From: Flavobacteriaceae bacterium
Lineage (GTDB): Bacteria > Bacteroidota > Bacteroidia > Flavobacteriales > Flavobacteriaceae
Direction: 5' to 3'
Assembly: GCA_013001965.1 (NCBI GenBank)
Contig: JABDLA010000066.1
Span: 1-44,853, forward strand
Length of the DNA: 44,853 nt
Below are positions 33,480-36,394 of the stretch, one piece after another; the first letter of the stretch is position 1, and every line of letters begins with the position of its first letter. The translations under genes and the position numbers were made by a program. Below the pieces are notes generated by a model. That model did not search any database, was not told the origin of the DNA, and worked only from the letters and a program-made list of their open reading frames with translations.

Positions 33480-33510
33480 TTTGAAAATACCATTTTCAAC
33501 CATACTTTTG
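33480..33510 (+). promoter_or_regulatory. Promoter with internal palindromic operator, porin/FMN-binding operon
   Basis: TTTG (33480-33483), 19 bases, then TACTTTTG (33503-33510) is a perfect Bacteroidota promoter. TTGAAAAT-ACC-ATTTTCAA (33481-33499) is a perfect 8-3-8 palindrome that covers the -33 element and most of the spacer, the position of a repressor operator. The predicted leader to the TTG start at 33555 is about 40 bases. The cognate regulator is unknown. Confidence 0.7.
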
Positions 33511-33554
33511 CGACCTATTTATTATCTATTTATAATTAATCTAAATAAAGTCAA

Positions 33555-34718
33555 TTGAAGTTTTATTCCTTAATCGTCTTGTGTTTTATTACCTTTTTGA
33601 GCTACTCACAAACCATTTATAAAGACACAAGCTCTACTAAGAACAATCAGCAAAATGCTGCGCAGACCATCCTACAGGGGGCACTTGCGAAAGGGTTGAC
33701 CGTTGGAGGTTATGCCCAGGTAGATTATAATCAACCTGAAGGCAAAAATGGCAAGCTCGATGTGCATCGTTTGGTACTTTTATTCGGTTATAAATTCAAC
33801 GACAAGGTTCAATTTGTTACCGAAATCGAATTCGAGCATGTTAAGGAAGTTTATGTTGAACAAGCCTTTTTGAATTATAGTGTACATCCCAATATCAATA
33901 TTCGCGGTGGATTGATGTTGGTTCCAATGGGAATTGTCAATGAATATCATGAACCAACGACCTTTAATGGTGTGGAACGCCCCAATGTTGATAGAAGCAT
34001 TGTACCATCAACCTGGCGGGAAATAGGAGTTGGTCTTAGCGGCAAATTAGATAACTTGTCCTTGCGCTATCAAGCCTATATCTTTAATGGATTTGCTTCT
34101 GTAAACGGAGAGAAGGTATTAGGGGGATCAAATGGATTAAGAAATGGACGACAAAAAGGAGCAGAATCGACTATTAATACGCCTAATTTTTCAACGAAGA
34201 TCGACTATTATGGCATTCCCGGATTGCGGCTTGGGGCTTCAGGCTACTTCGGAAGATCACAGGCTGAAGATGAGGTCGATGATCTCGAGGGAACCGATGT
34301 GGGTATCAGTATGTTCGGGTTGGATGGCCGTTATCTCAATGGCCGATTCTCAGCCAGGGGACAATATATTCATGCCATAATTACTGATGCCGATAGCTAT
34401 AATAACTTGTTTGAAACCGATCTCGGTTCGGAACTCAAGGGATGGTATGTTGAAGGGGCCTATAATTTATTACCAATTGGCAATGAACAAAAATTAGATG
34501 CGTTTGTACGCTATGAGCAATACGATACACATGCTGCAACACGAAACGCAAATATTTCAAGAAATTTATCTTATGATCGTCAGGAATTGACCTTTGGATT
34601 AAGTTACCATGTGGCCGCTGGTGCAGTAGTTAAAGCCGATTACCAGCTTTTGAATAATTCAAACCCGGGAAATACTGAAAAAGGTCAATTAAATATCGGA
34701 TTTGGAGTATGGTTCTAA
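33555..34718 (+). CDS. Outer-membrane porin (phosphate-selective porin O/P-like)
   Basis: This 387-residue protein has a signal peptide (MKFYSLIVLCFITFLSYSQ). The mature part consists of alternating short amphipathic strands: LTVGGYAQVDYNQPEGKNG, LDVHRLVLLFGYKFND, VQFVTEIEFEHVKEVYVEQ and INIRGGLMLVPMGIVNEYHEP. It ends in GFGVWF, a C-terminal Phe signal for the BAM machinery. This is the porin O/P style of barrel, with the substrate unknown. The start is TTG 33555, since no ATG precedes the signal peptide. The gene overlaps the FMN-binding gene by 10 bases, so barrel and flavoprotein are made together. An upstream promoter carries a palindromic operator. Confidence 0.85.
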   Translation: MKFYSLIVLCFITFLSYSQTIYKDTSSTKNNQQNAAQTILQGALAKGLTVGGYAQVDYNQPEGKNGKLDVHRLVLLFGYKFNDKVQFVTEIEFEHVKEVYVEQAFLNYSVHPNINIRGGLMLVPMGIVNEYHEPTTFNGVERPNVDRSIVPSTWREIGVGLSGKLDNLSLRYQAYIFNGFASVNGEKVLGGSNGLRNGRQKGAESTINTPNFSTKIDYYGIPGLRLGASGYFGRSQAEDEVDDLEGTDVGISMFGLDGRYLNGRFSARGQYIHAIITDADSYNNLFETDLGSELKGWYVEGAYNLLPIGNEQKLDAFVRYEQYDTHAATRNANISRNLSYDRQELTFGLSYHVAAGAVVKADYQLLNNSNPGNTEKGQLNIGFGVWF

Positions 34719-35269
34719 TTGAAAAACATAGAAGTAAACTTCGAATTCTGAATCTGCTTATTATAGTGTTGTTGGTTTTGCCATTCTTATCCTTTGAGTT
34801 GCCAAAACATATTCAAAAGAAAATGGATAAGGAAATCAAAGCTGTATTCAAGATCGAGACCTTTGAACTGGAATCAAGAACCTTTCCGGAAGGGGTTACA
34901 GAGCTAATTCCATCTGAATTTGGCGACTCCAACCTATATGAGATCAAATTGGATTCTGAACTTCTAGGCTTTGCCTATTTGGGAGAAGCACCGAGTAAAA
35001 CAGATACGTTCGACTACCTTATCCTGTTCGATCAAAATTTTGTAATTAGAAAAACCAAAGTTCTGATCTACCGTGAAGATTATGGCGGGGAAATTGGAAG
35101 CAAGCGCTGGCTAAGACAATTCAATGGTCGATCGACATCAGATGCCTTAGAACTTCATAAAGATATCATGGCTATTTCTGGTGCAACCATTTCTGTACGT
35201 TCAATGACGAAAGCTGTTAATGATGTTTTGAGATCCTTAAAAATTCTACGTCAAAAACAAATGCTATGA
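34709..35269 (+). CDS. Membrane-anchored FMN-binding domain protein (predicted ApbE flavinylation substrate)
   Basis: This 186-residue protein has one N-terminal membrane helix (about 11-30), which would leave the rest in the periplasm. The FMN-binding domain (PF04205) spans about 80-180 and contains the flavinylation segment AISGATISVRSMTKAV: Ser157-Gly-Ala-Thr160, where the Thr would carry FMN through a phosphoester bond made by ApbE, as in NqrC and RnfG. The Asp usually three residues before the Ser is Met154; the nearest Asp is residue 152. No apbE is in the window. The ATG lies inside the porin gene and the stop overlaps the next ATG, so the three genes are tightly coupled. I infer an extracytoplasmic electron carrier. 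Confidence 0.83.
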   Translation: MVLIEKHRSKLRILNLLIIVLLVLPFLSFELPKHIQKKMDKEIKAVFKIETFELESRTFPEGVTELIPSEFGDSNLYEIKLDSELLGFAYLGEAPSKTDTFDYLILFDQNFVIRKTKVLIYREDYGGEIGSKRWLRQFNGRSTSDALELHKDIMAISGATISVRSMTKAVNDVLRSLKILRQKQML

Positions 35270-35766
35270 AATTAAATGGATTAATTTATGACCTTGCAAA
35301 AGAATTAAAACTCCTAATAGGAGTATTCGTAATTGTTTTAAGTATTGGATTTTACACTGGGTTGCTGTTTGTTGGTGAAACAACCTCTGCTAGTCCTGAA
35401 GGAATAGAAGAGCAGTATTTGGGCAATGAAAATGACGAGGATGTCAAGATCATGAAATTTAAAAAAAGTGAACGTGAATTGCTCACTTTGGTTCATGATC
35501 ATATTTTGGGAATGTCGATAATATTCTTCTTGATAGGAGGGATCTTGAGCATGACCAAACTCAATTACAATTTGAAATTATTCCTCATGATCGAACCATT
35601 TGTATCGGTTGTCCTAACTTTTGGTGGAATATATCTTTTATGGAAAGGCATACTGTGGATGAAGTACCTGGTTATGATCTCAGGAGCCTTAATGGTAATT
35701 TGTTTCACTCTTGCTGTGCTTATCATTTTATTCCAATTATTTTCATACCCGTCTTACAGCAAATAA
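35266..35766 (+). CDS. Uncharacterised four-helix membrane protein
   Basis: This 166-residue protein has hydrophobic segments at about 15-37, 80-97, 103-126 and 132-160. A hydrophilic acidic loop (about 40-70) lies between the first two. LLTLVHDHILGM (His77, Asp78, His79) stands at the edge of helix 2, and Glu110 lies in helix 3. I do not recognise the family. The His pair could bind heme or a metal ion, which is inference only. ATGA overlap with the FMN-binding gene implies stoichiometric synthesis, so it is the natural candidate for passing electrons across the membrane to, or from, the flavin. No Cys motif or nucleotide-binding site is seen. Confidence 0.75.
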   Translation: MKLNGLIYDLAKELKLLIGVFVIVLSIGFYTGLLFVGETTSASPEGIEEQYLGNENDEDVKIMKFKKSERELLTLVHDHILGMSIIFFLIGGILSMTKLNYNLKLFLMIEPFVSVVLTFGGIYLLWKGILWMKYLVMISGALMVICFTLAVLIILFQLFSYPSYSK

Positions 35767-35887
35767 GGCTGGTCCAGGCTCAAAATTAATTTTTAATTTG
35801 TAAGGACATCTGGATTAATTCCAAATTACACCTAAATCTTCATTTTAAAAGAAAGATTGCCTATTTTAGTAATTAAATCAGAACAGT

Positions 35888-36394
35888 ATGATTGAAAGTA
35901 TCGAGTCCTTATTAAACGATCAAATCCAATATGAGGCCAGTGCCTCAATGCAATATCTGGCCATGGCATCATGGGCTGACCAAAAAGGATTTAATGGTAT
36001 TGCCAGTTTTTTTTATAGTCAGTCTGAAGAAGAACGTGTACACATGACCAAATTGGTAAAATTTGTAAACGAACGTGGTGGGAATGTCAGCATTCCTTCA
36101 TTAGACAAACCCAAAGGTTCGTTTAATTCGCTCAATGAACTATTTGAGACCTTTTTAGAAAGTGAAATTTTCGTCACTCAAAAGATCAATGAGATTATTT
36201 TTGAATGTCTGGAACGCAAAGACTATAATGTCCACAATTTTATGCAGTGGTACGTCAATGAACAATTAGAAGAAGAGGCACTTGCCAGAACATTGCTTGA
36301 CAAACTGAATATTATCGGTGATGATAAATCGGGTCATTATTTATTCGACCGTGATATCACAAGTTTTGAGGAAGAAGGACAGGAAGGAGAATAG
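35888..36394 (+). CDS. Ferritin (FtnA-type, non-heme)
   Basis: This 168-residue four-helix protein stores iron as a 24-mer cage. Ferroxidase-centre residues align with E. coli FtnA: Glu16, Glu49, His52, Glu91 and Gln124. Typical segments are YEASASMQYLAMASWAD, SEEERVHMTKLVKFVNERGG, FVTQKINEII and FMQWYVNEQLEEEAL. The acidic C-terminal tail (EEEGQEGE) is not part of the core. No heme-ligand Met of bacterioferritin type is evident. It follows the porin/FMN/4-TM operon by 121 bases in the same direction, a possible functional link through iron. A box resembling a -7 element (TATTTTAG) precedes it, but with one mismatch. Confidence 0.94.
   Translation: MIESIESLLNDQIQYEASASMQYLAMASWADQKGFNGIASFFYSQSEEERVHMTKLVKFVNERGGNVSIPSLDKPKGSFNSLNELFETFLESEIFVTQKINEIIFECLERKDYNVHNFMQWYVNEQLEEEALARTLLDKLNIIGDDKSGHYLFDRDITSFEEEGQEGE

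Follow-up and report, generated by a model that had tools for sequence, protein, structure and literature searches.

A conserved porin–flavoprotein–membrane protein operon of Flavobacteriaceae with predicted Fur boxes, a candidate route of ferric iron reduction

What is the role of an operon that joins an outer-membrane porin, a putative flavoprotein and a membrane protein without named relatives? The question is raised by contig JABDLA010000066.1 of a Flavobacteriaceae bacterium (GenBank assembly GCA_013001965.1), positions 1 to 44,853 of which are called here the window. Three overlapping genes of the window (hereafter the trio) code for the porin, for an exported protein with an FMN-binding (FMN_bind) domain and for a protein with four transmembrane helices (4-TM protein), and a ferritin gene follows. 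The original prediction, made from the DNA sequence, took these genes for a redox or iron module. Our comparative analysis indicates that the trio is probably a Fur-repressed iron-acquisition module, which would act as a flavin-based assimilatory ferric reductase.

The porin and FMN_bind genes overlap by 10 bp (34709-34718), the FMN_bind and 4-TM genes share the tetranucleotide ATGA (35266-35269), and the ferritin gene starts 121 bp after the 4-TM gene. An exact bacteroidete promoter, TTTG-N19-TANNTTTG, read directly from the sequence, stands ahead of the trio, and the TTTG pattern with a spacing of 18–20 bp occurs also upstream of several homologous porins; the overlaps, the separate promoter and the gap before ferritin agree in their coordinates with the original prediction. 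Homologues were sought in the phylum of the window (Bacteroidota), where the 4-TM gene was found in 34/345 genomes spread over the phylum, in 15/146 and 31/197 genomes of two further class-level samples, and in 110 of the 300 sampled genomes of Flavobacteriaceae. Among the 19 loci with a 4-TM protein obtained from the scan of species genomes, the FMN_bind gene is located just upstream in all 19 and the complete order porin-FMN-4TM is retained in 18, the exception being a locus (L013) whose contig begins inside the FMN_bind gene. The neighborhoods of 80 of the 110 Flavobacteriaceae loci were fetched, and 75 exhibit the same order; they are mostly flanked by an HMG-CoA-lyase-like gene (70 loci) and guaB (73 loci). 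The trio was found also in distant families of the phylum. Its recurrence is far above chance and bears out the single conserved operon of the original prediction, which would have fallen had related genomes lacked the trio. Decayed remnants of the 4-TM gene with stop codons are present in some Flavobacteriaceae (G611:C2:464039-464516, G587:C10:1188901-1189059, G666:C1:3027419-3027559), which suggests that the module has been lost repeatedly in this family.

The second protein of the trio (186 residues) matches the Pfam family FMN_bind (PF04205) with 30.6 bits against the cut-off of 22. Its AlphaFold model (pLDDT 86) was related by Foldseek to chains of RnfG (E-values 1e-7 to 3e-5) and NqrC (3e-3 and weaker), with which it shares the FMN_bind fold and an SGAT-type site. 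The SGAT flavinylation signature is present as predicted: T160 is invariant in the alignment of 18 homologues, close homologues retain invariant YRE..G.EI and SGATIS motifs, and distant ones keep the acceptor Thr, while the first residue of the motif is S, T or A. ApbE-flavinylated FMN_bind proteins are electron carriers outside the cytosol, and the trio protein appears to be of this type, with a predicted covalent FMN. It differs from RnfG and NqrC in scoring below the cut-off of the rnfG subfamily model (23 versus 102 bits) and in being encoded by an operon without Rnf or Nqr genes, and it is not a pump subunit. No Rnf or Nqr genes adjoin the trio in the window or in the clustered neighborhoods of related loci; the statement of the original prediction that none is present holds for the window, but not for the genome, which has an nqr cluster with a separate NqrC gene on another contig (C178). 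The designation of the flavoprotein as an anchor protein is doubtful, because several homologues carry short, ordinary signal peptides that look cleavable. The search for apbE, proposed at the outset, located it elsewhere in the window genome, with two PF02424 matches above the cut-off, one complete (C59) and one cut by the contig end (C131). In many other families apbE adjoins the trio on one side or the other, often as the fourth gene (PF02424 was confirmed for one of them). The complete apbE of the window genome (L134, G000:C59) lies within a cluster of thioredoxin-like, ApbE, small lipoprotein-like and DUF3570-like genes, a second flavinylation system, and a similar thioredoxin-like/ApbE/DUF3570-like cluster stands directly behind a trio with ferritin in L003.

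The 4-TM protein comprises 166 residues and is modeled by AlphaFold as four long helices (pLDDT 77). The protein of the window matches no Pfam or NCBIfam family, no family of these databases was matched consistently by 25 diverse homologues, and the Pfam domains of NapH, MsrQ, PepSY, DsbD, NqrB/RnfD and DUF4405 were found in 0/25 of them. Neither the fold search with the AlphaFold model nor the profile search revealed a relative in the PDB, and tblastn searches of plasmids returned no credible homologue, so the description of this protein as unrecognised stands with respect to Pfam, NCBIfam, and the sequences and folds of the PDB. It may resemble membrane proteins of proteobacteria; the genomes searched for homologues were those of Bacteroidota. 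Across Flavobacteriaceae and distant families G28, G46, G53, H77, H79, E110, P111 and F119 are invariant, and Glu110-Pro111 is located in TM3. The original prediction had pointed to a His77-Asp78-His79 motif; both His residues are indeed conserved, but Asp78 is freely replaced (by G, N, S, T or A in homologues), and the motif is therefore H-x-H. The loop 38–72 is acidic and is expanded in some distant members; hydropathy and the acidic loop suggest that this loop and the H-x-H motif face the periplasm. In four divergent relatives (L119:5581-7342, L121:624-2243, L120:3183-3794, L133:4861-6073) an FMN_bind protein (SGATWTS) is paired with a 4-TM protein that keeps H-F-H, has lost the E-P motif and possesses a long acidic loop. 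A cytochrome c with a single heme accompanies the pairs of L119 and L121; iron genes were not recognised near any of the four pairs, which perhaps represent a respiratory branch.

The match of the first protein to Porin_O_P (PF07396) is weak and passes the curated cut-off (26.8 versus 20.9 bits, E-value 3.9e-6), in agreement with the original assignment of an outer-membrane porin to the operon, while the phmmer search of the PDB matched no porin. The Pfam match is shared with OprO and OprP, from which the window porin differs by the weakness of this match and by a regulation and context of the iron type, not the phosphate type. In L074:5920-7870 (G158) a DUF6607 (PF20311) gene takes the place of the porin, the FMN_bind gene, the 4-TM gene and the Fur box are kept, and ferritin adjoins the module in inverse orientation. 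In a subset of Flavobacteriaceae, namely L010:3559-4038, L015:3643-4119, L009:1-399 and 10 of the 80 fetched loci, the gene immediately upstream of the porin codes for a single-heme Haem_bd protein (PF14376); it is preceded in L010 and L015 by a gene for a large exported protein (~500 residues) that is nucleotidase/phosphoesterase-like.

The regulation of the operon can be predicted from two 23-bp palindromes, absent from the original prediction, which flank the promoter. A scan of porin upstream regions revealed a recurrent palindrome with the refined form TTATTTANNNNNNNTCTAAATAA, from which box 1 deviates by 0 mismatches and box 2 by 1 mismatch. In Riemerella anatipestifer, also a flavobacterium, the Fur box ATTTAGAATTATTCTAAAT has been derived, Fur-target promoter binding was demonstrated by electrophoretic mobility shift assay, and the Fur site of hmuR is ATTTAAAATTATTCTAAAT (PMC5609570). 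The sites of the window, ATTTAAAATAATTCTAAAT and ATTTATAATTAATCTAAAT, exhibit 1 and 2 mismatches to the Riemerella consensus, and dinucleotide-shuffled windows contain no site with ≤2 mismatches to it; on these grounds the conserved promoter box can be predicted with good confidence to be a Fur box. The genome encodes one Fur-family protein (PF01475, contig C94). In a mixed sample of porin upstream regions, 44/64 have a site with ≤2 mismatches, and in 44/64 the shuffle p-value is ≤0.01; in Flavobacteriaceae 74/75 loci possess a box (≤2 mismatches) upstream of the porin, and 62/75 have two boxes. In operons that begin with another gene, the box is found at the head: clearly in L055, L102, L103 and L104 (immediately ahead of fur in L055, L102 and L104), with 2 mismatches in L065 and L116-L118, and with 3 in L073, L113 and L114. 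The whole-genome search for the box pattern in 15 genomes with the trio, in which Pfam confirmed a representative set of the box-preceded genes, placed it also upstream of feoA-feoB (L175, L178, L186, L197), feoB (L190), fur (L193, L195, L198, L200, L201), TonB receptors (L181, L191, L196), Fe-S assembly genes (L183, L209), hemA (L185, L189), nqrA (L188) and cytochrome c genes (L176, L180, L187, L205). The boxes at nqrA (L188:1083-2432), hemA (L189:2777-4042), a multi-domain cytochrome c gene and the Fe-S assembly genes suggest that the Fur regulon of Bacteroidota extends widely into respiration. Flavobacteriaceae genomes contain the reversed pattern far less often than the box itself; for some AT-rich genomes of another family this does not hold, so that single sites in the latter can be due to chance. 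Two further candidates were rejected: a perfect inverted repeat, TTGAAAATACCATTTTCAA, between -33 and -7 (33481-33499), considered as an operator, is not conserved in relatives, and a candidate Fur box with 4 mismatches at 35808-35826, within the promoter of the ferritin gene, does not exceed the chance level, with 0.9 expected per shuffled window.

The gene neighborhoods of relatives link the trio to iron transport, with feoAB, feoB or FTR1 in its own or the adjoining operon in several families, but not in the window, where only ferritin adjoins. The order fur-feoA-feoB-porin-fmn-4TM-apbE is found in L055 and L102, feoB precedes the module in L103, and L104 exhibits fur-FTR1(FtrD-like)-porin-fmn-4TM-apbE; fur is encoded two genes upstream of the module in L073, L113 and L114, and in L013 (a Kordia metagenome-assembled genome) and L314 the next genes after the 4-TM gene are feoA-feoB. 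The first gene of the operon in L065 and L117 codes for a solute-binding protein, which we guess to bind iron. The connection to iron drawn by the original prediction is thus strengthened by the predicted Fur boxes and by the adjacency to feoAB, fur and FTR1 in relatives. Its other element, ferritin, adjoins the trio in the window but is only an occasional neighbor elsewhere: it is near or next to the trio in 11/80 Flavobacteriaceae loci, upstream or downstream and inverted once, and in 2/19 of the first loci. About 0.3 of the 80 loci would be expected by chance (our estimate, assuming one or two ferritin genes per ~3.5 Mb and 8.5-kb windows, uncorrected for genome relatedness), hence the association of ferritin with the trio is real but optional; the reading of ferritin as a constant component was rejected. 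The protein of the window is itself an evident ferritin (127.5 bits). In L072:1-5865 (G342) the genes downstream of the trio code for a membrane protein that resembles cytochrome b, a ferredoxin/NAD(P)H-reductase-like protein and a pair of proteins, each of which has 19 CxxCH motifs. The label feoB was set aside for a 332-residue protein of L068, which resembles another GTPase, and a CxxCH match in L063 was judged to be a spurious reading frame.

Table 1. Features of the trio operon and its surroundings in the window
Feature	Position	Strand	Remarks
Predicted Fur box 1, TTATTTAAAATAATTCTAAATAA	33455..33477	.	just upstream of the -33 element
Bacteroidete-type promoter, TTTG (-33) - N19 - TACTTTTG (-7)	33480..33510	+	read directly
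Predicted Fur box 2, CTATTTATAATTAATCTAAATAA	33526..33548	.	between -7 and the start codon
Outer-membrane porin, signal peptide, Porin_O_P	33555..34718	+	PF07396 above cut-off; kept in 75/80 loci
Exported FMN_bind protein, SGATIS flavinylation motif	34709..35269	+	PF04205 above cut-off; RnfG/NqrC fold
Thr160 codon (predicted flavin acceptor, SGATIS)	35186-35188	+	inside the FMN_bind gene
4-TM inner-membrane protein, unnamed family	35266..35766	+	invariant His77, His79, Glu110-Pro111
Ferritin, optional module neighbor	35888..36394	+	PF00210 E 4.6e-37

The proposed function builds on what can be read from the sequences, i.e. the operon, its conservation, the predicted Fur boxes, the FMN domain and the iron-gene neighbors. 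When iron is scarce, Fur would leave both boxes and the operon would be transcribed. The porin would admit small ferric species, its presumed substrate, to the periplasm, where the exported FMN_bind protein, with FMN covalently attached by ApbE at Thr160, would reduce Fe(III) to Fe(II). The 4-TM protein may pass membrane electrons, most likely those of quinol, to the flavin with the involvement of His77, His79 and Glu110; this entry of electrons is the weakest step of the proposal. Fe(II) would then be taken up by the ferrous importer of the given genome, FeoAB or FTR1 in relatives and perhaps an Nramp-type protein in the window genome, and the imported iron may be stored in ferritin. Several observations weigh against this proposal. 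Only two His residues of the 4-TM protein are conserved, and they lie two residues apart on a single helix, so that the bis-His heme usual in PepSY, MsrQ or DUF4405 proteins is not evident. An apbE gene next to the trio is rare in Flavobacteriaceae (2/80 loci), and FeoB was not found in the window genome, which is 87% complete. Finally, the predicted Fur boxes precede also respiratory genes that use iron (hemA, nqrA, cytochromes), so Fur control by itself is no proof of uptake.

The last of these points also fits a reading with iron as the signal and not the substrate: under iron starvation the flavoprotein and the 4-TM protein could be iron-sparing carriers that stand in for those with heme or Fe-S on a redox pathway of the periplasm, much as flavodoxin stands in for ferredoxin. 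A Fur box at the operon and an FMN domain, which is a general electron carrier, fit such a role, as does the pairing of the 4-TM and FMN_bind proteins with a single-heme cytochrome c in the divergent L119 and L121, but we regard it as unlikely, for it leaves unexplained the porin, kept in 75/80 loci, and the operons with feoAB, FTR1 and fur. It is rather improbable that the porin and the 4-TM protein constitute an import route for iron or another divalent metal, with the latter as the permease and the flavoprotein keeping the metal ferrous. Although His77, His79 and Glu110 are residues of the metal-ligand type, and the iron-gene context and the failure to find FeoB in the window genome would suit a permease, such a role is redundant where the 4-TM gene shares an operon with feoB or FTR1, as it does in several families, and the window genome possesses an Nramp homologue, i.e. 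a known type of ferrous/manganous importer. Least probable is a reductive release of periplasmic iron from imported ferri-siderophores, analogous to FoxB-type reductases, with the porin unrelated to substrate entry, since the presence of the same box at TonB receptors and the link of siderophore reduction to PepSY-type reductases (PMC8238504) are countered by the clustered neighborhoods, where no siderophore or TonB-receptor gene recurs beside the trio and the conserved partner is the porin. Fur control, the porin, the ferrous importers and the link of flavinylation to iron together make assimilatory ferric reduction the simplest reading of the trio.

Systems of this kind have been proposed before. 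According to one survey, PepSY-like, MsrQ-like and P19-associated flavinylation systems may serve iron assimilation, and Fur control has been reported for the PepSY clusters (PMC8238504). The trio has in common with them a membrane partner and neighboring iron transporters, and it resembles them further in its predicted ApbE-type flavinylated extracytosolic protein and, as regards the PepSY clusters, in its predicted Fur control. It differs in that its 4-TM membrane protein is unrelated to theirs, belongs to no Pfam family and lacks the customary pair of heme His residues, in that the porin is a near-constant partner, and in that it is known from comparisons within Bacteroidota. Likewise, the DUF4405/FezC membrane cytochromes are small membrane partners tied to flavinylation or iron, and DUF4405 has six TM helices and four central His residues and binds heme b (PMC11334425), whereas the protein described here has four TM helices, a single H-x-H, the E-P motif and no Pfam match. 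The consulted parts of both surveys (PMC8238504, PMC11334425) do not describe the porin-flavoprotein-4TM architecture or its membrane component, and the architecture was not found in the open-licence literature, supplements aside. The kind of system is known, while its membrane component and architecture were not found described in these sources.

Flavinylation-based iron assimilation has so far been proposed mainly for PepSY-, MsrQ- and P19-linked systems. We suggest, tentatively and with more doubt than confidence, that the H-x-H/E-P family of 4-TM proteins may represent an undescribed class of transmembrane electron-transfer proteins that feed quinol electrons to a covalently flavinylated periplasmic protein and that, together with the dedicated porin, would form an envelope-spanning, flavin-based pathway of iron reduction, a standard iron-starvation system in a large part of Flavobacteriaceae and in other families of Bacteroidota. 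If true, this would add a class of membrane partners for flavin-based electron transfer, explain what a large group of unnamed genes under iron regulation does in abundant Bacteroidota, and provide a marker of iron stress in these bacteria.

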